Shown: positions 899 through 36,282 of the stretch, piece after piece
Layout of the letters: the number at the start of each line of letters is the position of its first letter
How positions within the stretch are numbered: the first letter of the stretch is position 1
Source of the DNA: a virus
Direction: 5' to 3' (one strand)
IMG/VR virus record: IMGVR_UViG_3300045257_000179
Location: 1-37,104 of that record
DNA length: 37,104 nt
Translations under genes and position numbers: made by a program
The notes under the pieces: model-generated
What the model was told of the DNA's origin: nothing
Databases searched by the model: none
Seen by the model: the letters and a program-made list of their open reading frames with translations, nothing else

Positions 899-1729
899 TT
901 AATGAAAATTATTAAATACTCGTGTTGTGCCGTAATCTCTAACAAACTGTTCCTTATTATAAAGAAGTTTATAAATAACTTGCCTTGCTTCTTCAGAAAC
1001 ATTACTATTCTCAATAGATACAGACAGTGGCTCTGTAATTAAGGGGCATTTATGAAATACAATAGAAACAGAAATACCCATAAAAGACACGTTAGAAGGG
1101 TCTGCTGGGCCATTAAGAGAACTATCACACCTAATCCGCACCATCTCATCTGCAAACTTAAGCTCCACTGCATGAACTCCATGCATCCAGAGTTCATCTC
1201 TAGTTAAATTCTCATAAGTAATACGAGGCATATTGGCTCTTTCAGAAATCTTCTGGTCAAGATCTACAAACTCAGAAAGCAAATCAAGGGTACGAATAAC
1301 AAGATTTCCTGGTACTTGTCCTTCCATACCCCCTGCATAAGCTCGATGACTCATCATAACACCAGTTTCAATAATATACCTTTTATCAAGAAATTGACTA
1401 ATAATAAAAGACATAGAGGCACTAAAGATAGAAACAGTATGAACAGATTTATTTAGTCCTTTAGCGGTCTCAATAATTTTATATCCATCTGAAACATTTC
1501 CTCCTGGACTATTAAGAACTAAGTAAATATTGCTCGCTTTACTATCCATTAAACTTTGTTGAATATTACCAGCAGTGCGCCCTATAATAGGCAGGTTAAG
1601 ACTAATAGTATTCTCTGAAGTTAATACAATAGTTTTAAGTTCGTCACTATTAGCTTTACGGGATAATACAAAAAGAAACATCAAAGAAGCTAACAAAACT
1701 GCTAGTGCTGCTCGTTTAAAAGTATTCAT
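899..1729 (-). CDS. ClpP-like serine protease with N-terminal signal anchor
   Basis: This 276-residue protein has a ClpP/crotonase-fold protease core. The sequence NIYLVLNSPGGNVSDGYKI (67-85) matches the substrate-groove glycine loop. The likely nucleophile is Ser105 in SASM, the likely His is His128 in MMSHRA, and the likely Asp is Asp178 in TRDELWMHG. A hydrophobic segment (about residues 7-23) after a basic start predicts a signal peptide or membrane anchor, which cytoplasmic ClpP lacks. About 75 extra C-terminal residues with no recognised domain follow the core. The ATG overlaps the polymerase stop (ATGA) and has a strong AAAGGAG ribosome site inside the polymerase gene, so translation is coupled. 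Phage ClpP-like genes usually sit in head modules as prohead proteases, whereas this one sits between polymerase and primase. Its substrate is unknown. A role at the membrane or in the periplasm is inferred. Confidence 0.8.
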   Translation of the reverse strand: MNTFKRAALAVLLASLMFLFVLSRKANSDELKTIVLTSENTISLNLPIIGRTAGNIQQSLMDSKASNIYLVLNSPGGNVSDGYKIIETAKGLNKSVHTVSIFSASMSFIISQFLDKRYIIETGVMMSHRAYAGGMEGQVPGNLVIRTLDLLSEFVDLDQKISERANMPRITYENLTRDELWMHGVHAVELKFADEMVRIRCDSSLNGPADPSNVSFMGISVSIVFHKCPLITEPLSVSIENSNVSEEARQVIYKLLYNKEQFVRDYGTTRVFNNFH

Positions 1730-3702
1730 TCATCTCCTTTAAGGCCAGCTAACGTTTGAAATGTCTTTATTTCAGCTTTTATTGTAACAGATAAACTTAA
1801 AAAGTCATTAACTTCTTTTAATGCATCTTTATATACTTTGATTAACTCATCTTTTTGCTCAATAGGGCACTGATTAGAAGTGGAATCGTGACAATCAAGT
1901 AAAGCTGGTTTAATGTCAATTTGGCGGGCTTTTGACAAGCGATAGATTGTCAATACCCACAGAATAAGTACGTCATGGGCACTAGACTGTATAAACCTAT
2001 TTGGTAAATCTTTATAGTCAGGGTTAGGTACTCTGATGATACGCCCAATTACATTTCTAATCTGTCCTTCTTTCCTATAACATTCTCGTAAACGATAATT
2101 AAACTCAGCTACTTTTCTAAACTTCTTCCAATAGGCTCTAACATAACTATCAGCTTCCGACCTTTCGGTAGGAATGCCTTCTTTATTGAGATTTTTAGCC
2201 ACTGTGACGCCTGTTCCGGTGTACTGAACTGCGAGCTGAATAACCTTCGATATCTTTCGCTCTTTAGCGAACCTTTCTTTGATTTCTTTTGTAATTGGCA
2301 CACTTGGATCATAACCATCCTGCAACTCCTTGTTATCTGGAAATAAGGTTAAAGCTAGGTCAAGATATATGTCCCCCAATTGTTTTCCAAACACCTTATA
2401 CAAACTGGGGTCTTCAGAGTAGTGGGCTGTGATTGTTGGCTCGATCGCACTAAGATCAGCATGTATTCCTGTGTATCCTTTGTTACATTGCAAATGCTGC
2501 ATAACTTCTTTTTCTTCAAAAGGCGCGTTGAGTAAGTAAGGTTTAAATCCTGATAAACGGTAAGACACAGTTCCACAAACATTAAAACCAGGGTGAAGCC
2601 TAGAATCAACAACACTGCTAAGAAGATAAGGACTAGAAAAGCTGGAACTGATTGTGTTAAAGTATTCATAATTTAAATATTCTTTTACTGCCTTAACCAG
2701 TCTGGTATCTCCGATTTTTCCAATACTTGCTTTAAGGGCATCTGCCGAGGTGGAAGGCTTTCCGCCTTCAGTGCTGTCACACACTGGAAGTCGAAGTTTG
2801 GCATAAAACATCTCCCTTTTATGGAGATCAGAGTTTGGGTTAAAACGTTGCCATCGTTCTGGTGACGCCAAGTAGTGTACTTTGTTATATGGCCGTTTAT
2901 ACTCTGCCACTCTACGATCTTTCCAATCTTCTTCAAGACTGTTTACCTCCGATTTTAGCAAAGTTAAAAATCTATTTCTTGACTTTTCTTTTTGTTTTAC
3001 CAACTTTTCATGAGACTTTTCTAAACCTACTCTATCAACTTTGACTCCTTGATAAGTATTTGCTTCAAGAAGCAAGTTGTAATCCATCGATTGCTTTAGC
3101 ATCCACCAGTAATCATTCTTATCAAAAAATGGTTTAAACTTTACATATAACTGATATGTAGAAAATGCATCAAGACAAGCATACTTTGCTAGTATCTCCA
3201 AGTCAGCCTTATAATGCTCACCTTTCCTTAAAGATCCTCCCTTAGTCTTTACATTTATTTCTAATTCTTTTTCATTAGTGGTGGGCCAGCCCAAAACCTC
3301 TTTTTGCGCATCCTTCAATCCATACGGCTTAGGCCCTTCAGGAGCTGCTTGAAGATGATACATCAACCGAGTGTCAGCTTCCCATCTTGAATCTATCTCA
3401 AAAAACGAGTCAATAAAGCTCTTGTCATAAGAAAAATTGTGACCAATAAAGCTCCGGTTGCTAAGCCAGTTTCGAAGGAATATTCGGAGATCAGTTGTAA
3501 GTATATTTTTCCAACTTTCTGAATAAACCCATATAGGAATGTATATACTTTCAATTTGTCCTCCTTTGGTTTCGCCAGAAACTGACATACCAAGTAACTT
3601 CTTTGTTGATTCCCAGCGTAATCCAAATGTTTCGGTGTCGAGGGCTAGTAACCCCTCAAATTTCGGAAGATCTTCAAATTTATATATAATCTTCCATTTC
3701 AT
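1726..3702 (-). CDS. Family A DNA polymerase with 3'-5' exonuclease domain
   Basis: This is a replicative DNA polymerase of 658 residues. The N-terminal DnaQ-like exonuclease has Exo I LDTET (Asp22, Glu24), Exo II NFSYD (Asp93) and Exo III YACLD (Tyr174, Asp178), so proofreading is expected. In the polymerase domain, motif A is ADLSAIEP (Asp416, Glu421). Motif B runs R482-x3-K486-x3-L490-x3-Y494 and motif C is CHDS (His605, Asp606, Ser607). Two positions are unusual. The O-helix residue equivalent to E. coli Phe762 / T7 Tyr526 is Leu490, and the Glu that normally follows the motif C Asp is Ser607. No 5'-3' exonuclease domain is present. It lies in the minus operon, upstream of and overlapping the ClpP-like gene. 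A structured gap of about 250 bp precedes the start. Confidence 0.95.
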   Translation of the reverse strand: MKWKIIYKFEDLPKFEGLLALDTETFGLRWESTKKLLGMSVSGETKGGQIESIYIPIWVYSESWKNILTTDLRIFLRNWLSNRSFIGHNFSYDKSFIDSFFEIDSRWEADTRLMYHLQAAPEGPKPYGLKDAQKEVLGWPTTNEKELEINVKTKGGSLRKGEHYKADLEILAKYACLDAFSTYQLYVKFKPFFDKNDYWWMLKQSMDYNLLLEANTYQGVKVDRVGLEKSHEKLVKQKEKSRNRFLTLLKSEVNSLEEDWKDRRVAEYKRPYNKVHYLASPERWQRFNPNSDLHKREMFYAKLRLPVCDSTEGGKPSTSADALKASIGKIGDTRLVKAVKEYLNYEYFNTISSSFSSPYLLSSVVDSRLHPGFNVCGTVSYRLSGFKPYLLNAPFEEKEVMQHLQCNKGYTGIHADLSAIEPTITAHYSEDPSLYKVFGKQLGDIYLDLALTLFPDNKELQDGYDPSVPITKEIKERFAKERKISKVIQLAVQYTGTGVTVAKNLNKEGIPTERSEADSYVRAYWKKFRKVAEFNYRLRECYRKEGQIRNVIGRIIRVPNPDYKDLPNRFIQSSAHDVLILWVLTIYRLSKARQIDIKPALLDCHDSTSNQCPIEQKDELIKVYKDALKEVNDFLSLSVTIKAEIKTFQTLAGLKGDE

Positions 3703-13248: not shown

Positions 13249-14553
13249 ATGGCTATTTTTGCCACAGCTTCCAACCAGGTAGCAGCTCTTAAGGAGCTCT
13301 ATACTGGCGATGAATTCATGAAGGATTTGGTCTATAAGAAGAATCCTCTTCTGGCCCTTATCCCGAAAGATGAGTCTCCGTCAGGCATGGCTGGAAAGTA
13401 TATTCCAGTTCCTTTGGTGTATGGTACACCTCAGGGACGATCTGCGACGTTTTCTAATGCGCAGAATAACCAAACAGCCCCTTTTCTCTCGAGCTTTTTC
13501 GTATATCGAGTGTCTAACTACCAGTTGGCCACGATTACAAACGAATTGCTCGAAGCCACTAAAGATAACGCGGCAGCCTTTGTAGACGAAGCTAAGCTAG
13601 TTATGGATACGGCATTCCGAAATATTTCGAATGATCTAGCCCATGACTTGTTTGGCAATCCTCAGAGTTATCGCGGCACTTATGGGCTAAGTTCTGGGTC
13701 TATCGCTGTGGGTGTCATTATTCTTGACAACCCTCAGGATATCGTGCAGTTCGAAGTGGGCATGTCCCTAGTGTCTTATAGCGTCAGCGGTTCTACTGCT
13801 ACGCAGAGCACTGGCGCAGCTATCGGGTACGTGATTGCAGTTAATCGCTCTAGTGGGCAGTTGACTGTGTCTGCTACACCGGGCGGCGCAGCGGGCACTC
13901 CCACCAACTGGTCTACTGCATTTCCATACTTGGCAGTTCAGGGAGATATTAACTTTGCTGTTAATGGTCTTCAGTCATCCAATGTTGGAATGCTTAAAGT
14001 ATCGGGCCTTGGCGCTTGGCTTCCTACTGTTTCCCCTGTTACTGGTGACAGCTTTTGGGGAGTCGATAGATCTGTTGATGTAACCAGACTAGCTGGTGTT
14101 CGCTTTGATGGCTCTAGTGAGACTATTGAAGATGCACTTATTGATTCTTCGACTCTTGTGGCGCGTGAAGGCGGAATGCCTGAGATGTGCTTTATGAGCT
14201 TTGCGTCATATGCAGCTCTTGAAAAGTCTCTAGGAGCTAAGGTTCAGTATGTGGATGTGAAGCACGATGAGGCAGACATTGCGTTTGCTGGTATTCGTGT
14301 TCATGCCCCGTACGGGCCTATTACGGTTATTCCGGATCGTAACTGTCCAGCACAGACAGCGTACCTCCTTCAGATGGATGTGTGGAAACTTCGCTCTTTG
14401 GGCAAAGCTCCTCATATCTTGACGTATGGTCTCGAGGGGCTTGAAGGCCTTCGAGTAGGAAATGCCGATGCTCTGGAGATTCGAATTGGGTACTATGCAA
14501 ACTTAGTTTGCTCGGCCCCCGGTTGGAACTGCACAGTTAAGCTTTCTAGTTAA
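13249..14553 (+). CDS. Major capsid protein
   Basis: This 434-residue protein is assigned as the main shell protein from its place after the scaffold, its size and its HK97-like pattern. The N-terminal arm has FMKDLVYKKNPLLALIPKDE, a helix-rich spine follows (about 90-135), and a long beta region lies in the middle. A C-terminal axial-domain-like end reads VHAPYGPITVIPDRNCP. AAAGGATA lies upstream of the ATG. Codon use looks less AT-biased than in neighbouring genes, as expected for a highly expressed protein. A hairpin terminator follows directly, isolating it from the next gene. Confidence 0.85.
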   Translation: MAIFATASNQVAALKELYTGDEFMKDLVYKKNPLLALIPKDESPSGMAGKYIPVPLVYGTPQGRSATFSNAQNNQTAPFLSSFFVYRVSNYQLATITNELLEATKDNAAAFVDEAKLVMDTAFRNISNDLAHDLFGNPQSYRGTYGLSSGSIAVGVIILDNPQDIVQFEVGMSLVSYSVSGSTATQSTGAAIGYVIAVNRSSGQLTVSATPGGAAGTPTNWSTAFPYLAVQGDINFAVNGLQSSNVGMLKVSGLGAWLPTVSPVTGDSFWGVDRSVDVTRLAGVRFDGSSETIEDALIDSSTLVAREGGMPEMCFMSFASYAALEKSLGAKVQYVDVKHDEADIAFAGIRVHAPYGPITVIPDRNCPAQTAYLLQMDVWKLRSLGKAPHILTYGLEGLEGLRVGNADALEIRIGYYANLVCSAPGWNCTVKLSS

Positions 14554-14707: not shown

Positions 14708-15994
14708 ATGGCTAATAGAAGTTTTAATCAATTTTTTCGAACTCTTCATAACTACCCGGTTTTGCTTGACTGTAATTTTATTGTAGACAGTCAAAATATC
14801 AATGGGTTGGGTATTCGTAGTTTAAAAGGTCCTGGCATTAAGGCTGTGTACATGAATTCCAGCGCAGCCCCTGCAGGTAGCCCCAACCTAGGCCTTGCCC
14901 GCACTTATGGCCTTTTTGGCGCTTCTGCGATTACCAATACCGGCAATACGGTTGTAACTGGTAACTTGGGACTTACTCCCGGGTCATCTATCACTGGCTT
15001 TCCCCCGGGAACTTTCTCGGGAGTGGAAAACATAGACAATTCTGCAGCTGTATCGGCTAAGGCACAGGCTCAAGCGGCATACACAGATATGCAATCCCGG
15101 TCTTCGACTCCTATTTCTTCTACACTCGATGGACAAACTCTTACTCCAGGCGTTTATAGCGAATCAAGCGGTACTTTTAATCTAGCTCAGTCTGGTAATG
15201 GAACTCTTACTTTAAATGGAAATGGAGTTTACATCTTTAAGTGTAGCAGCACTCTAACTACCGGAGCGGGAGGAGTTCCTACTATTAATCTTACAGGGGG
15301 AGCTCAAGCTTCTAACGTTTATTGGGCAGTTGGCAGTTCGGCTACTATCAATTCGGGCTTTTCTGGAGTATTTCAGGGCAATGTTGTCGCCAATACCAGT
15401 ATTACGGATACTCTGGGCGGCACTGTTAATGGGAGTTTAATCGCTCTTAATGGAGCAGTTACTCTTAGTGCAGCTTCTATTGTGAACGTTCAACCTCTGG
15501 CAGGAACTCCTGCTCAGGGCAATCCTAATCCCAATCCCGGTACTATCATGGTTGTTTTACAGGATAACTATAATAGATATTATGGCGGATTTTCACAATT
15601 TACGAGCCCGCTTAGTGGAAGTCAGCTAACCTCTGTTGTGGCAGGGAATCCTTATGTTATCTTTAGTCTAGGTACGGCTACTTTAGCTCAATGGCAAGCC
15701 GTTGGGCTTCCAGTTGGCATTACTCCTGCAGTTGGGGCTGCGTTTGTAGCTACTAGCAGTGGCAGTATCGGAGGGTCTGCTTCAGTTGAACTTTCAGCTG
15801 CTTCCGGGGTTGACCATATCGAAGTTGTGGGAGACCCTAATCAGACGCTTTATCCACAACCATCTAATACACAGGGCGGGCAGATTATCTTGAATTGTAT
15901 TCTGGCAGGCGCAGTATCAGCCCCCACCGACGGCACACTTATTAGTCTTTCTCTTTATCTTTCCAATAGCGCCCTTCTTCTTTCGGGCGAATAG
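14708..15994 (+). CDS. Minor structural (capsid decoration-type) protein with inserted DUF3494 ice-binding-like domain
   Basis: This 428-residue protein is made of two parts. Residues 1-58 (MANRSFNQFFRTLHNYPVLL...) and about 271-428 look like one continuous phage structural protein, broken at a Pro/Gly/Asn loop (PAGSPN before, PAQGNPN after). Between them, residues about 61-263 match the DUF3494 / ice-binding-protein beta-solenoid pattern. LGLARTYGLFGASAITNTGN and TVVTGNLGLTPGSSITGFPP are followed by AQAAYTDMQ, TLTPGVY, GNGVYIFK, STLTTG and GGAQASNVYWAVGSSATINS. The domain ends with GNVVANTSITDTLGGTVNGSLIALNGAVTL. In cells such domains bind ice or act as adhesin modules; here display on the virion is inferred. 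The gene follows the capsid gene after a terminator-like hairpin. Confidence 0.8.
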   Translation: MANRSFNQFFRTLHNYPVLLDCNFIVDSQNINGLGIRSLKGPGIKAVYMNSSAAPAGSPNLGLARTYGLFGASAITNTGNTVVTGNLGLTPGSSITGFPPGTFSGVENIDNSAAVSAKAQAQAAYTDMQSRSSTPISSTLDGQTLTPGVYSESSGTFNLAQSGNGTLTLNGNGVYIFKCSSTLTTGAGGVPTINLTGGAQASNVYWAVGSSATINSGFSGVFQGNVVANTSITDTLGGTVNGSLIALNGAVTLSAASIVNVQPLAGTPAQGNPNPNPGTIMVVLQDNYNRYYGGFSQFTSPLSGSQLTSVVAGNPYVIFSLGTATLAQWQAVGLPVGITPAVGAAFVATSSGSIGGSASVELSAASGVDHIEVVGDPNQTLYPQPSNTQGGQIILNCILAGAVSAPTDGTLISLSLYLSNSALLLSGE

Positions 15995-16067: not shown

Positions 16068-17114
16068 ATGCCAACAATAGCTCCGCCAATCCCACAAAAC
16101 TTCATTCTTCAGCAGGGCAATGGCCAGATCCTATTAAATTGGGATTTAATTGCAGGTGTTACTAACTATGTTGTTCAGCGCTCTTTAGATGGCATTACCT
16201 ATAGTACTATAGCTAGCCCCATTGTTCCTCAATACCTGGATGTTGCCGTAACTCCAGGTACTAAGTATTTCTACCAGGTAGCAGCAGTAAACTCTTCTGC
16301 TACCAGCCCTTTTACACCTCCTCAGTCTATTGTACCTACTTTATCGGCTAGCTTATCTCTTGGGCAGCTCAGGTTGATGGCGCAACAGAGAGCTGATAGA
16401 GTAAACAGCCAATTTGTTACGATTCCTGAATGGAACACCTACTTAAACCAGTCAGCTTTTGAACTTTACGACTTATTGGTTACTTTGTATGAGGATCAGT
16501 ATACAGCGCCCCCAACGTTGTTTCAAACCGACGGGTTAACTTTTCAGTACCCACTTCCAGATGGTGCCCGCACCTACTTAACTCAAGCGGGACTTACTTT
16601 TACCCCTCCTCCCTTCTATAAACTTTTAGGCGTAGACCTTGGCTTAGACCTATCAACTAATGCTTGGATTACTCTACGTAAGTTTGACTTTATAGCTAGG
16701 AATAGATATGTATTCCCCAATATTACCTCTACTTTCTTAGGAGTATTTAACCTTCGGTACAGGTTATTCGGTAATACTCTATATTTCATTCCCACTCCCT
16801 CTGCGGGTCAGTTTGTTAGGCTGTGGTATGTGCCAAGAATGGCACAGTTATTGAAGGATACAGACCAATTGGATGGTGTAAGTGGCTGGACGGAATATGT
16901 AATTATAGACGCAGCTATTAAGGCCCTTCAAAAAGAAGAATCAGATGTTTCTGTGCTACTTGCCCAGAAGCAGATGATAATTGATCGTATTAATAGTTCA
17001 GCTATGAACAGGGATGCAGGGTCGCCCGATACTATCAGTAATACTAGGAGTTGGGGGGAACGCTGGGGCGGATATGGAAGTCCAAATGGAGATGGTTCAT
17101 ACGGGGGCTATTGA
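16068..17114 (+). CDS. Head-tail adaptor protein with N-terminal FN3 domain
   Basis: This is a 348-residue protein. Residues about 3-92 are a fibronectin type III domain: IPQNFILQQGNGQILLNWDL, then VTNYVVQRSLDG, then TKYFYQVAAVNSSATSPFT. The remainder has a helical start (LGQLRLMAQQRADRVNSQFV, IPEWNTYLNQSAFELYDLLV) and a beta core, the layout of podovirus head-tail adaptors that dock under the portal. It ends in a Gly-rich tail (GGYGSPNGDGSYGGY). FN3 domains on phage virions are often exposed and are thought to aid weak contact with cell-surface glycans. The stop overlaps the next start by one base. Confidence 0.7.
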   Translation: MPTIAPPIPQNFILQQGNGQILLNWDLIAGVTNYVVQRSLDGITYSTIASPIVPQYLDVAVTPGTKYFYQVAAVNSSATSPFTPPQSIVPTLSASLSLGQLRLMAQQRADRVNSQFVTIPEWNTYLNQSAFELYDLLVTLYEDQYTAPPTLFQTDGLTFQYPLPDGARTYLTQAGLTFTPPPFYKLLGVDLGLDLSTNAWITLRKFDFIARNRYVFPNITSTFLGVFNLRYRLFGNTLYFIPTPSAGQFVRLWYVPRMAQLLKDTDQLDGVSGWTEYVIIDAAIKALQKEESDVSVLLAQKQMIIDRINSSAMNRDAGSPDTISNTRSWGERWGGYGSPNGDGSYGGY

Positions 17115-27980: not shown

Positions 27981-29762
27981 ATGTCTCAGTACGCTAGATA
28001 TCCTTTTTCTAACGGGATATTAAGCATTAATGGTGATACTGCTGCCAACCAACTTATAGTAGGTGGTTCAGGCATAACAGTATCTACTACAGGCGGCACT
28101 ACCACTATCTCTTCTACAGGAGGTACTGGAACAGTAACCAGTGTTGGCCTATCTCTGCCTGGAAGCGTGTTTACAGTATCGGGAAGCCCTGTTACAACGT
28201 CAGGCACCCTAACAGGTTCATTTAACACTCAATCGATACACACAGTGTTTTCTGGTCCCTCCTCTGGCGGCCCCTCAGCTCCTACATTTAGATTGCTCAC
28301 TTCAGGTGACATACCCCCTTTACCTTATGCATTAGATTCTTTTACTATAATGCAAACGCCGCTAGGCACCAGCCCTACGGCATCCTCTTCTACTGACACA
28401 CTTACTTTTGCCAATACTGATGGTACTTTGTCTATTACGGGCAATTCTGTTAGTAAATCTATAACGTTTAATACTATTGGTTTACAGCCAGCAGGTAACT
28501 ATATTACTGCACTGACTGGAGACGTAACAGCTACAGGACCTGGCAGTGTGCCAGCTACTCTGGCCACTGTAAACAGTTCTCCAGGAACGTATACTTATGC
28601 TACCTTAACTGTTAATAGTAAAGGATTAGTTACTTCTGCTTCTTCAGGTATTAGCCCAGTTACTTCTGTAACTGCAGCAGGGCCAATTATTTCTAGTGGG
28701 GGCGCCACTCCTTCTATTTCTATAGGAGTGCTAAACACTGCTAATATTCTTTATGTTTCTCATGATCTTGGGAATGACTCGACTGGAGACGGGTCATTTG
28801 CACATCCATATTTTACTATCCAAAAAGCTATTGGCATAGCCCAGGCTCGGCCATCTACCTATAATACCCCTATAAAAATATCCGTAGCCCCTTCTGGAGC
28901 GGCTAATGTTTACGCAGAGAATCTATCAATCACGCAGCAAGGAATTATACTAGAAGCTGCGAGCTCGGTCTACCACAATAACTCTGTAATTTTATATGGA
29001 AATCATACAATTAATTTAACTGGAACTGCCGGAGATGGTAACTTTTATGCAGGAGACAATGAAGTATCTATTAATGGGTTTCAACTGGCTGCTTCCAATG
29101 GTAGTCCAATAATTGATTTTACTGGGTCTGTACTTCAACGACTTTTTCTAAATAATTGCATCTTATACTCCACAGGGACTAATTCAGCCATTACAGTTGA
29201 GAGTACTGGAAATAGTGGTGGCTCTTTTTCTACGGTAACAGTAAGAGATTGTGACTTTACGAATGGCAGCGCTAGTGTTCCTACCATTAAGGTGACATCA
29301 GGAAATATATTTATTGCTGGAGCAAACCCTTCCGTTGCAAACACTACCTCAGGTGGACCTGCAATAACCAACAGTGGAACAAAAACTGTCACCTTAAATA
29401 ATGGAAGTGTTACAGGTACAGTAAGTAATTCCAGCACAGGGTCAATAATTCTCGCTAATAGTGCAATTGCAGCCACAACAACTGGAGGTGTGATATCAAA
29501 TACATCCACAGGTTCAGTTATAGTAGAAGCATGTGCAGTTACCAATAACACATCTACTGGTTCTGGGATTGTTGAAAGTAATGCTGCAGGAACAGTAACC
29601 GCAGCGGAAGTCTTATTCAACATAGGTACTGGTAGTGGGGCTTATGTAGCTAAAGGTACTGGTGTATATGTGTATGCGGCAAACGCATATGTTTCAAATA
29701 AAAATTTACAGAATACACTAACTATAGTACCACTTGCTACTACACCTACGACTGGGCCGTAA
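27981..29762 (+). CDS. Tail fibre / spike protein 1 with beta-helix C-terminal half
   Basis: This is a 593-residue protein. Residues 1-115 have SINGDTAANQLIVGGSGITV, then GTVTSVGLSLPGSVFTVSGS and a 'P-FR-L-DIP' turn. These elements form a module widespread in phage fibres. From about 250 a pectate-lyase-like parallel beta-helix begins (LYVSHDLGNDSTGDGSFAHP, FTIQKAIGIAQARP), running through short repeats (NTSTGS, NNSTGS-type rungs) to about 540. No catalytic acids can be assigned, so depolymerase activity is uncertain. The N-terminal module is shared with the fibre at 30076-31725. Host recognition is the inferred role. Confidence 0.75.
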   Translation: MSQYARYPFSNGILSINGDTAANQLIVGGSGITVSTTGGTTTISSTGGTGTVTSVGLSLPGSVFTVSGSPVTTSGTLTGSFNTQSIHTVFSGPSSGGPSAPTFRLLTSGDIPPLPYALDSFTIMQTPLGTSPTASSSTDTLTFANTDGTLSITGNSVSKSITFNTIGLQPAGNYITALTGDVTATGPGSVPATLATVNSSPGTYTYATLTVNSKGLVTSASSGISPVTSVTAAGPIISSGGATPSISIGVLNTANILYVSHDLGNDSTGDGSFAHPYFTIQKAIGIAQARPSTYNTPIKISVAPSGAANVYAENLSITQQGIILEAASSVYHNNSVILYGNHTINLTGTAGDGNFYAGDNEVSINGFQLAASNGSPIIDFTGSVLQRLFLNNCILYSTGTNSAITVESTGNSGGSFSTVTVRDCDFTNGSASVPTIKVTSGNIFIAGANPSVANTTSGGPAITNSGTKTVTLNNGSVTGTVSNSSTGSIILANSAIAATTTGGVISNTSTGSVIVEACAVTNNTSTGSGIVESNAAGTVTAAEVLFNIGTGSGAYVAKGTGVYVYAANAYVSNKNLQNTLTIVPLATTPTTGP

Positions 29763-30075: not shown

Positions 30076-31725
30076 ATGTCTGAATACGCAAAATACCCCA
30101 ATACAGGCGGCAGTGGGGTGGCTAGTATCAATGGGGATACCAATAGTGCCCAGTTAATAGTTGGAGGAACGGGAATTTCTGTTGCCACCTCGAGCGGCAC
30201 TACCACTATTACTAACACTAGCCCTTCTTCTGGAGGCACGGTTACTAGTGTGGGGCTTTCTGCCCCTAGCTCTATATTATCAGTAAGCGGGAGCCCGATC
30301 ACAAGTTCGGGAACAATCTCTTTATCTCTTACTTCACAAACCGCTAATACTGTATTTGCTGCTCCCAATGGTTCTAATGGTGTTCCTAGCTTCAGGTCTC
30401 TAGTTTCCGCAGATATCCCAGCCTTGCCCTATGTTACCAGCGTGTCTTTAACTATGCCTGGTATATTCTCCGTGGCTGGATCTCCGATTACAAGCTCCGG
30501 CACTCTAGCAGTAAGTTTAGTCTCAGAGACTGCTAATCAAGTATTTGCAAGTCCTAGCGGATCTTCAGGCGTTCCTACTTTCAGAACCTTAACTTCGGCA
30601 GACTTGCCCACCTCTACGGCCAACAGAGTAAGCTTCTATAATAGCAGCGGGGTGCTGACAGCTAGCGACATGGCCTACGCAGGACCAGCGGCCTCTCTTT
30701 TCTTGCCTGGGTCTGAGATTGTGTTTGGACCTTCTGGATCAACAAGCAATGCTGATATACGATGCAACAATGACACAGACAGCCTCGCACTAACGGGGGG
30801 CGGCACTGGAGCTCAGTTAATACTTTACGGGCAAACCCATGCTACCTTCCCTAATCAAGCTAGATTTATAAATGGAGCTTCTAGTTTAGTGCAGGGGTCT
30901 ACAGATGCAAATGGTAAGTGGACCTTAGGGGCTTCTGGAGGCACCCAAGTCCATGTTGTAAACGGCAGTTTAGCAGTAACAGGGGCCACTGTAAACCTTT
31001 CTCTAGGCTCTCTTACTGCTTCAACAGCCTTAGCTTCCGATGCTAGTAAAAACATAGTGTCGTCTACGACGACGTCTACCGAGTTGGGTTTCGTGCACGG
31101 AGTTACCTCTGCCATTCAAACGCAGATTAATGGCAAGGCATCCCTCACTGGCGCTAACTTTACTGGTACCGTATCTGTAGCTAGCAATGCTACTAATCAA
31201 CAGTTGAGAGTAACTTCCACCAATACTGGCGGCACCTCTCTTTCATTGACTAATAGTTCTACAGGAGGACAGCAATGGCTTGTTACTTCTACAGGGTCTT
31301 CCTCAGTCTCAGGAGCAGGTAATTTTGTAATAACTGACCCTGTATCTACTAACGATGTAATCTTTATACAGACAGCCACTGACTTTGTTGGTATAAATAC
31401 AGACACCCCCTCCTCTAGATTTACTGTAAACGGGGACATCAGCACATCTGGAAATGTACTTATCTCAGACATAGGGGGCGGGATTAGTATTGCTGAAGGC
31501 AGCAATGCTAGGATGGGCTTAGCCACCCTAGTTGCCGGCACCGTCACTGTTAGTAATACAACTATCACAGCAAATACCCGCATATTTTTGACAACCAACG
31601 CTCCCTCGGGCACCGTGGGTTCTCCTTATGTGTCTGCAACAAGCGCGGGAGTTTCATTTACGATAACATCCACGCAGGCGGCGGATACTTCCAGTGTTGC
31701 TTGGCTTTTAATAGAACATACTTAG
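30076..31725 (+). CDS. Tail fibre protein 2 with duplicated N-terminal module
   Basis: This is a 549-residue protein. It has the same start as fibre 1 (SINGDTNSAQLIVGGTGISV) and two tandem copies of the 'TSV-SL-P---SVSGSPITSSGTL...ANTVFA-P...P-FR-L-ADIP' module (about 54-118 and 119-178). A middle domain and a 'VGINTDTPSSRFTVNG' element (about 435-450), common near fibre tips, follow. The C-terminus (IFLTTNAPSGTVGSPYVSAT, then SFTITSTQAADTSSVAWLLI) matches a compact tip domain found at the ends of many fibres. It is likely a trimer that contacts the host receptor. Confidence 0.78.
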   Translation: MSEYAKYPNTGGSGVASINGDTNSAQLIVGGTGISVATSSGTTTITNTSPSSGGTVTSVGLSAPSSILSVSGSPITSSGTISLSLTSQTANTVFAAPNGSNGVPSFRSLVSADIPALPYVTSVSLTMPGIFSVAGSPITSSGTLAVSLVSETANQVFASPSGSSGVPTFRTLTSADLPTSTANRVSFYNSSGVLTASDMAYAGPAASLFLPGSEIVFGPSGSTSNADIRCNNDTDSLALTGGGTGAQLILYGQTHATFPNQARFINGASSLVQGSTDANGKWTLGASGGTQVHVVNGSLAVTGATVNLSLGSLTASTALASDASKNIVSSTTTSTELGFVHGVTSAIQTQINGKASLTGANFTGTVSVASNATNQQLRVTSTNTGGTSLSLTNSSTGGQQWLVTSTGSSSVSGAGNFVITDPVSTNDVIFIQTATDFVGINTDTPSSRFTVNGDISTSGNVLISDIGGGISIAEGSNARMGLATLVAGTVTVSNTTITANTRIFLTTNAPSGTVGSPYVSATSAGVSFTITSTQAADTSSVAWLLIEHT

Positions 31726-32120: not shown

Positions 32121-32549
32121 ATGACAGCATCAGATAAGGCCATAGCCTTAATTAAACAGTGGGAAGGCTGTAAATTAGAGGCATACACAGATTCCGCAGG
32201 AATCTGGACAGTGGGCTACGGCACCACAGGGCCCGGTATTCAAGAAGGTACTACTATAAGCCAGCGCACAGCTGAAGGTATGCTTTTAGACCGTGTACAA
32301 ACTTTAGTTTATCTTATTAGTGATTATGTAAAGCCTATATTGACTCAAAATCAGTTTGACGCTCTTGTGAGTCTTGTTTATAACATAGGTATAACGGCCT
32401 TTAAGGGCTCTACGTTGCTTCGATGTATCAACTTAAGGCAATGGTCCCAAGCAGCAGGAGAGATATTAAGGTGGGACCACGTAGGCGCTTTAGAGTCTGA
32501 AGGTTTGAAAGCTAGGCGGAAGGCTGAGAGCGCCTTGTTTATGTCTTGA
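32121..32549 (+). CDS. Endolysin, GH24 lysozyme
   Basis: This 142-residue muramidase cleaves the beta-1,4 bond between MurNAc and GlcNAc. The E-x8-D-x5-T catalytic triad of T4-type lysozymes is intact (Glu15, Asp24, Thr30 in WEGCKLEAYTDSAGIWTVGYGTT-type context), and the later helix motif (FDALVSLVYNIG) is typical. There is no signal peptide or SAR segment, so release through the holin is expected. Its last 60 bases overlap the end of the minus-strand glycosylase-like gene, so the two operons converge with coding overlap and no terminator between them. Confidence 0.92.
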   Translation: MTASDKAIALIKQWEGCKLEAYTDSAGIWTVGYGTTGPGIQEGTTISQRTAEGMLLDRVQTLVYLISDYVKPILTQNQFDALVSLVYNIGITAFKGSTLLRCINLRQWSQAAGEILRWDHVGALESEGLKARRKAESALFMS

Positions 32550-35345: not shown

Positions 35346-35563
35346 TATTTTTCTCTTTTTAGATACTTAATATATCTAGATAAATACCAAGAACCTTTCT
35401 CAAGATCTTCGATAAATTTAGAGGAATCTTTCCTACCCGCCCTAGACAAATACTTAATAGTATTGCCTAGATGATAATTAAAACCCTTGTCTTCTATAAA
35501 ATCAATTGTTTCGATTTTACTGTTGGTATAATGTTTGGGCTTTTTTACTACATGATACTTCAT
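35345..35563 (-). CDS. DUF3310 family protein
   Basis: This 72-residue protein shows the DUF3310 pattern clearly: a 'KPKHYTNSKIETIDFIE' start (P-x-H-Y-x-x-x-x-I-E), then YHLGNTIKYLSRAGRKD (G-N-x-I-K-Y-x-x-R-A-G-x-K), then DLEKGSWYLSRYI. The family is often annotated as a predicted nucleotide kinase, but no biochemical role is settled. The gene abuts the metallophosphoesterase (one-base overlap) and precedes a small unknown gene, consistent with a nucleotide-handling cluster. Confidence 0.82.
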   Translation of the reverse strand: MKYHVVKKPKHYTNSKIETIDFIEDKGFNYHLGNTIKYLSRAGRKDSSKFIEDLEKGSWYLSRYIKYLKREK

Positions 35564-36282
35564 TACTTCTTCCTCTTGGACCCACTTGAAATGGGTATAA
35601 ACCTTGGTCCTAGCTCATCAATAATTCCCATACCATGTGTCCAATACTTACGAGATTGCTCCCCATATTGAAGAGGACCCTGAGTCAAGTCCCCGCTATA
35701 CCCACAGTTAAGCTCAAACTTGATGCCGTCTGCATAACCTTTAAACACTACGCCACCTATGTGAGAATGGCCCACTACCGTGGATTGCTGGTTAAAAAGC
35801 AGGTGTGCGCCAAGTTGGCTCCTATGTCCATGGTGAAACAAGATCCGATTTCCGTTAATGCTAATCTCCAACTCTTGGCGGCTATTATGTATGGTAGTGA
35901 CCCCCTTAAACTCGAACAGTCCTTTAAGACTTTCTCCAATAAATGGCTCGAGTTCCGGAGCCCTCTCAAGCATCCTTTTGTATGGCCTGTCGTCGTGATT
36001 TCCCTTTATTTGATAACATACTGCTCTTGGCGCTAACTTATGAATATTATTCCAAAACTTCTCGGCCTGTCGTCGCCCTATCTTAACCTCCACCTCAGGA
36101 ACAAAGGTTAGCATACTCTTAGGGTAACGGCTAGCGTGCCAAAAGTCATAAAGATCGCCTATTTGTACTATGCAGTCAGGCTTTTCCCTTGCTATAATTT
36201 TCATTATAGCTCGTGAAACTGACACATCTTCATATGGAAGATGCTTGTCCCCCAATATCGCCACCTTTTTAAAGTTTTTCAT
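35563..36282 (-). CDS. Calcineurin-like metallophosphoesterase
   Basis: This is a 239-residue protein. The full set of two-metal phosphoesterase motifs can be seen: GDKH (11-14), GDLYD (42-46), GNHDD (94-98), HGH (151-153) and GHSH (171-174). The first motif, D-K-H, retains Asp12 and His14. It is likely active on a phosphodiester or nucleotide substrate. It starts 3 bases after the CYTH stop and ends in the DUF3310 start. The pairing with a triphosphate-binding CYTH protein and an HNH nuclease suggests a nucleotide- or DNA-metabolism cluster. Substrate unknown. Confidence 0.88.
   Translation of the reverse strand: MKNFKKVAILGDKHLPYEDVSVSRAIMKIIAREKPDCIVQIGDLYDFWHASRYPKSMLTFVPEVEVKIGRRQAEKFWNNIHKLAPRAVCYQIKGNHDDRPYKRMLERAPELEPFIGESLKGLFEFKGVTTIHNSRQELEISINGNRILFHHGHRSQLGAHLLFNQQSTVVGHSHIGGVVFKGYADGIKFELNCGYSGDLTQGPLQYGEQSRKYWTHGMGIIDELGPRFIPISSGSKRKK

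Follow-up and report, generated by a model that had tools for sequence, protein, structure and literature searches.

The 428-aa open reading frame (ORF) at 14708-15994 on the plus strand of the window (the whole 37,104-nt stretch of DNA analysed, from the record of an uncultivated bacteriophage) encodes a protein of a capsid-adjacent family into which a DUF3494 (PF11999) domain has been inserted. The reading that fits best, and which we consider likely, is that of a mobile virion-display domain that grips a surface through its flat B-face; presence on the virion and adhesion are inferred, and there are no binding data. The fused gene and its parts are as follows.

14708..15994, plus strand: fused gene, protein of a capsid-adjacent family (about 220 aa) plus DUF3494 domain (ORF call, Pfam, relatives without the insert)
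14708..14875, plus strand: N-terminal part of the carrier, residues 1-56 (alignment with plain relatives; model)
14879..15502, plus strand: inserted DUF3494/PF11999 domain, residues 58-265 (Pfam, phage DUF3494 HMM, Foldseek)
15041..15097, plus strand: long helix of the DUF3494 fold, residues 112-130 (DSSP on the AlphaFold model)
15503..15517, plus strand: flexible junction between domain and carrier, residues 266-270 (pLDDT < 50)
15509..15991, plus strand: C-terminal part of the carrier, residues 268-428 (host-family HMM match to residues 265-428)

The inserted domain belongs to DUF3494/PF11999. It matches the Pfam Ice_binding profile over residues 71-258 (E 5.1e-41, 141 bits against a cut-off of 28.7), and phmmer aligned residues 60-258 with solved ice-binding proteins, the best being 6eio (E 2.7e-31), an ice-binding protein from an Antarctic consortium (PDB), with AnpIBP (7bwx) at E 1e-24; an HMM built from phage DUF3494 domains spans residues 58-265. 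In an AlphaFold model (mean pLDDT 89.7) whose input alignment comprised 60 sequences from the window and the loci, the inserted part is a beta-solenoid with a long helix at residues 112-130, and strands in the N-terminal part of the carrier occupy residues 17-26, 36-40 and 44-49. All 31 PDB matches of the model at E <= 0.001 (Foldseek) are ice-binding or antifreeze structures, with target TM of 0.82-0.88 for the best three (6eio, 7bwx and 7bwy). Structurally, the family is marked by a discontinuous beta-solenoid that a long alpha helix braces; the insert has both in the model, which is a prediction and not an experiment. A sequence-only reading had proposed a DUF3494 ice-binding-like domain at 14888-15496 (residues 61-263); the identity held, the boundaries held to within a few residues, and the structure check, which might have refuted the fold, found a beta-solenoid with a helix. 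The signal peptide of secreted microbial ice-binding proteins is absent from the window protein.

In alignments, relatives about 212-278 aa long cover residues 1 to about 57 and about 268 to 428 of the window protein and have nothing between. Eleven loci with short proteins (216-259 aa) matching both ends of the query were found in a first IMG/VR scan, and 80 loci out of 136 relatives were kept from a profile scan. DUF3494 is absent from 66 of the 73 distinct family ORFs (a few of them partial) and present in seven, and in all seven carriers it lies in the same loop, between the third conserved strand and an NPNP motif. Because 66 of the 73 distinct relatives lack the domain, the DUF3494 segment is an insertion and not an original part of the carrier family. 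The earlier proposal that both flanks belong to a single ordinary protein, split by the insert, held, as shorter relatives align to both ends, and homologues that could have shown the segment to be original show an insertion; the accompanying impression that the insert is GC-richer failed. The insert is not compositionally foreign: its GC content of 0.465 lies between the 0.400 of the 180 nt upstream and the 0.478 of the gene's downstream half, and when windows of 609 nt were taken across the structural half, 21% were at least as GC-rich. A GC anomaly as a sign of recent import is rejected. Where a target-site duplication was sought, at the boundaries of the insert, there were only short repeats at chance level.

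The domain has been gained repeatedly within the carrier family. When the insert was removed and a tree was built on the carrier part only, five changes were required to account for the seven carriers, three or more of them forced by supported branches, and a one-change history was found in no bootstrap tree. Forcing the seven carriers into one clade cost 167 log-likelihood units (AU p 3.9e-8), and a single insertion followed by descent is rejected on this basis, barring recombination; recombination between phages could mimic some of the gains. The decorated copy stands alone in the window and in locus L088, and has a plain copy directly upstream in L014, L015/L084, L050 and L069. The same loop holds a different insert of about 80 aa in L051 (6001-6924) and L091 (6001-6948), and therefore tolerates cargo. 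Unnamed inserts occur in other loops of the family (L093:5941-7068, L095:4442-5521 and L096:5947-6882). With varied inserts in several loops, the carrier family looks like a cargo platform.

The window insert is closest to other viral copies, with which it shares about 60-70% identity. Among 68 bacterial and archaeal loci, the highest identity is 46-48%, and the nearest cellular copies are scattered over many phyla, with no particular donor resolved. A 46-member set of exclusively viral copies (SH-aLRT 99) takes in all seven inserts. By a crude heuristic, signal-peptide-like starts are present in 71 of 82 cellular DUF3494 ORFs versus 5 of 82 viral ones, and of those five, L017 alone looks genuine. 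The fused gene might be an artefact, either a misassembly of bacterial and phage genes or a product of contigs that are not viral. In favour of this explanation, all records are uncultivated IMG/VR contigs, and the cultured phages of a 50,697-record collection gave no match to the fused protein, to the plain family or to two other DUF3494 queries, leaving three DUF3494 queries unmatched; Synechococcus phage S-SKS1, mentioned as a viral homologue in PMC11515562, was not recovered by the cultured-phage queries. Against it, the fusion recurs beside conserved phage genes in seven distinct ORFs that come from several samples, the GC content of the insert matches the gene, and the nearest relatives are viral and closer than the best bacterial or archaeal copies. 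An artefact can be dismissed almost entirely.

The neighbours of the fused gene bear on the nature of its carrier part.

13249..14553, plus strand: major capsid protein, SU10 type, directly upstream (PF17236, E 8e-7; a relative upstream in 59 of 93 loci)
16068..17114, plus strand: conserved downstream virion-type gene, 348 aa (weak tail-protein PHROG match, E 5e-5; downstream in 82 of 93 loci)

The relative of the major capsid protein is mostly 15-240 nt from the carrier gene, and in about 20 loci up to 4.8 kb away. One mark of a head-decoration protein, a gene placed in the head module and adjoining the major capsid gene, is present, and the carrier is probably a head-decoration protein, an inference from synteny without proteomics or electron microscopy. 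The designation rests on synteny because the carrier fold has no confident solved match: there is no PDB match at E <= 0.001, and the best match in BFVD (E 4.6e-4) has a TM of about 0.2, which is not a confident one. As these searches gave no fold shared with a known decoration protein, the carrier is not assigned to any known decoration family. In a second phage group (L010, L028, L060-L065 and L090), a plain carrier relative lies inside a different head cluster, and those of L060, L062, L063, L065, L028 and L010 have signal-peptide-like N-termini. Such proteins do not fit a simple virion role for the whole carrier family and are unexplained. The proteins of L130 and L124 gave only marginal scores as distant members of the family and are not counted as such.

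Other genes were observed in these regions. Between the capsid and carrier genes of L015 (2912-5175), an ORF read from sequence alone as a MoxR-like ATPase is followed by a 385-aa ORF that is possibly its VWA-type partner. Two large ORFs of the window (27981-29762 and 30076-31725) have a common N-terminal domain, phrog_9625, and the latter ends in a stretch matching a polysaccharide deacetylase PHROG and a minor tail protein family. The window also contains genes for a DNA polymerase I-type protein (1726-3702, minus strand), an endolysin (32121-32549, plus strand) and a metallophosphoesterase (35563-36282, minus strand); no tRNA genes were found in it.

Other viral proteins also carry DUF3494. 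A scan that used a DUF3494 alignment as query yielded 79 viral loci, and in all 91 distinct viral DUF3494 ORFs form 20 carrier groups when sorted by their non-DUF3494 parts. PHROG profiles identified a tail sheath in 9 of 44 scanned DUF3494 ORFs and a tail fibre, minor tail or head decoration protein in a few; the largest carrier group (31 ORFs) is mostly unnamed by profiles, and its members are suspected, by inference, to be baseplate proteins. The L166 protein is a jumbo-phage sheath with DUF3494 at 254-449; at both ends it aligns with sheath proteins from cultured jumbo phages (Agrobacterium phage Atu_ph07, Pseudomonas phage PA5oct and their kin). In four ORFs the domain is circularly permuted, with the helix part first and the N-terminal part last.

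L130:7833-8882: circular permutant, C-terminal profile part preceding N-terminal part
L133:7419-10256: circular permutant, same order
L137:2287-5052: circular permutant, same order
L144:3-2096: circular permutant, same order

L130 comes from a phage close to that of the window (capsids 74% identical), and its permuted domain is in a different small protein in the same slot between the capsid gene and the downstream gene. Decorated and plain copies of other small proteins lie near the capsid gene in L124 and L107. A 171-kb viral contig (L013) has four DUF3494 domains in separate ORFs, at 75659, 90357, 162311 and 170447. What the sequence-only reading described for one gene is broader than stated, comprising repeated insertions, tandem plain and decorated copies, many carriers and circular permutants. 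Its suggestion of display on the virion is still an inference from synteny and carrier identity, without proteomics or electron microscopy, now backed by the tail-sheath carriers.

Alternatively, the fused gene could be an auxiliary gene, its product made during infection for freeze protection of the host and not placed on the particle. Three PF11999 genes in Arctic vOTUs were presented as host-cryoprotection auxiliary genes (PMC11515562), one viral antifreeze gene is reported in PMC8407431, and the plain relatives with signal-peptide-like starts in another phage group point the same way. However, the window protein lacks a signal peptide and has its domain internal to a capsid-adjacent protein, other DUF3494 copies are inside tail sheaths, and an ice-binding protein confined to the cytoplasm would have no contact with extracellular ice. 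An auxiliary gene should encode a stand-alone or secreted product outside the particle modules, which the window protein is not, and this explanation is considered improbable.

The ice-binding site of AnpIBP is listed in PMC7277481, where changing S153 or T156 of the B-face cuts activity to 17%. The B-face was mapped on the window protein through its phmmer alignment to AnpIBP and that publication, with one strand omitted because its alignment is ambiguous. The following segments are supported by the mapping and by conservation.

14924..14941, plus strand: B-face strand 1, SAITNT, residues 73-78
14984..14995, plus strand: B-face loop segment, SSIT, residues 93-96
15248..15265, plus strand: B-face strand 3, STLTTG, residues 181-186
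15335..15352, plus strand: B-face strand 4, SSATIN, residues 210-215
15395..15412, plus strand: B-face strand 5, TSITDT, residues 230-235
15452..15469, plus strand: B-face strand 6, GAVTLS, residues 249-254

The two residues needed by AnpIBP for full ice binding, S153 and T156, have Ser and Thr equivalents in strand 4 of the window protein; at S210, S211, T213 and N215 the 46-member phage clade shows no variation (100% conservation). When entropy was computed for this clade (43 members after 90% clustering), the 20 outward B-face positions averaged 0.52 versus 1.31 elsewhere, and 0 of 10,000 random sets were as low, whereas cellular copies showed no contrast (1.75 versus 1.73). Column 4 of the face is Thr in 90% of the phage clade compared to 72% in cells, column 2 is a mix of Ser, Ala and Thr, charged residues are practically absent and bulky ones almost absent. 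These patterns indicate that copies in unrelated proteins have retained one flat face for some purpose; conservation does not identify the ligand. They bear on a further alternative, that the domain is a passive passenger, a mobile self-folding unit tolerated in loops with little function of its own. Its occurrence in many unrelated proteins and in several topologies, including the four circular permutants, is compatible with this alternative, but across unrelated carriers the B-face is constrained far more strongly than the remainder of the domain, and a passive role is very unlikely.

The preferred reading, a virion-display adhesin, can be put as a mechanism. The DUF3494 beta-solenoid, inserted in an exposed loop of a capsid-adjacent and probably head-decoration protein, would stand out from the virion on its flexible junction, once per carrier copy, and its flat Thr/Ser-rich B-face would bind a regular surface. 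Many weak contacts per particle may add up to firm adhesion, as is thought for Ig-like domains on phage particles. In freezing habitats, binding to ice or to the ice-water boundary would keep particles within the liquid veins in which hosts become concentrated; alternatively, ice binding may protect the particles from recrystallisation.

The earlier suggestion of tethering to ice or to other surfaces is supported insofar as the conserved B-face speaks for a retained ligand face, but the data do not name the ligand. Ice ranks as the most likely single ligand, ahead of polysaccharide or mineral, yet we stop short of favouring it outright: it is plausible, not shown, and the habitats of the contigs are not established, their IMG sample numbers having led to no paper. 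The fold alone is no proof of ice binding because DUF3494 occurs in many ice-free habitats and is also described as substrate-binding (PMC12337378). The main rival on this point is a virion adhesin with a non-ice ligand, the same flat face binding a host or biofilm polysaccharide or a mineral or peat surface. It is favoured by the presence of DUF3494 in many ice-free environments and its description as substrate-binding or adhesive, by column 2 of the phage copies, which is nearer to the rock and frozen-sediment pattern than to the Ala-rich polar-marine one (PMC12337378), and by T4 Hoc, a comparable device on the capsid for which binding to bacterial surfaces and to mucin glycans is reported (PMC10385173). 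On the other hand, the conserved face is the ice-binding face of AnpIBP, with the Ser/Thr equivalents of both tested residues kept, and it has no charged and almost no bulky residues and 90% Thr in column 4. A non-ice ligand is a real possibility, though not one that we would put above an even chance.

A bolder reading, advanced tentatively and with rather more doubt than belief, is that the DUF3494 module has been repeatedly grafted by uncultivated phages into head-adjacent, sheath and other particle proteins, in some cases in circularly permuted form, so that particles bind ice, and that viral PF11999 "cryoprotection" genes are often virion ice adhesins. If phages do carry DUF3494 on their particles, this would be a direct and testable mechanism for the distribution and survival of viruses in frozen or freeze-thaw habitats, and the habit of annotating PF11999 in a virus as a host-cryoprotection gene would need correcting. 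The beta-solenoid would be added to the few accessory domains that phages shuttle between particle proteins, and the natural circular permutants and conserved-face variants may be material for engineering ice-binding display. A search of the open-licence literature found no report of phage DUF3494 or of an ice-binding tail sheath, and viral PF11999 only as an auxiliary host-cryoprotection gene; this absence is no proof.

Known ice-binding proteins are made by cells, which either secrete them or keep them anchored. The window domain resembles known DUF3494/PF11999 proteins (6eio; AnpIBP, 7bwx/7bwy) in its profile, its beta-solenoid with a long helix and its Thr/Ser-rich flat B-face, but those proteins are cellular and mostly secreted, whereas the window domain is internal to a phage structural-type protein without a signal peptide. 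The viral PF11999 auxiliary metabolic genes of PMC11515562 belong to the same Pfam family and also lie in viral contigs; they were read as host cryoprotection, whereas carriers of the window type are particle-type proteins (the PMC11515562 genes themselves were not compared). In Marinomonas primoryensis, MpIBP (PMC5014055) similarly places an ice-binding domain on a surface anchor that holds a particle at ice, but the particle is a bacterium and the ice-binding domain is not DUF3494 and lies within a 1.5 MDa adhesin. Phage Ig-like domains (T4 Hoc; the Ig-like insertions in capsid proteins of Fraser 2006, cited in PMC10385173) are likewise modular beta domains on particle proteins, sometimes with two versions per phage, and weak multivalent adhesion has been proposed for them. 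They differ in being Ig sandwiches, in contrast to the beta-solenoid inside a loop of the window protein, and the likeness is of role only, with no known relationship. The use of DUF3494 in an accessory role of this kind on phage particles appears to be new.
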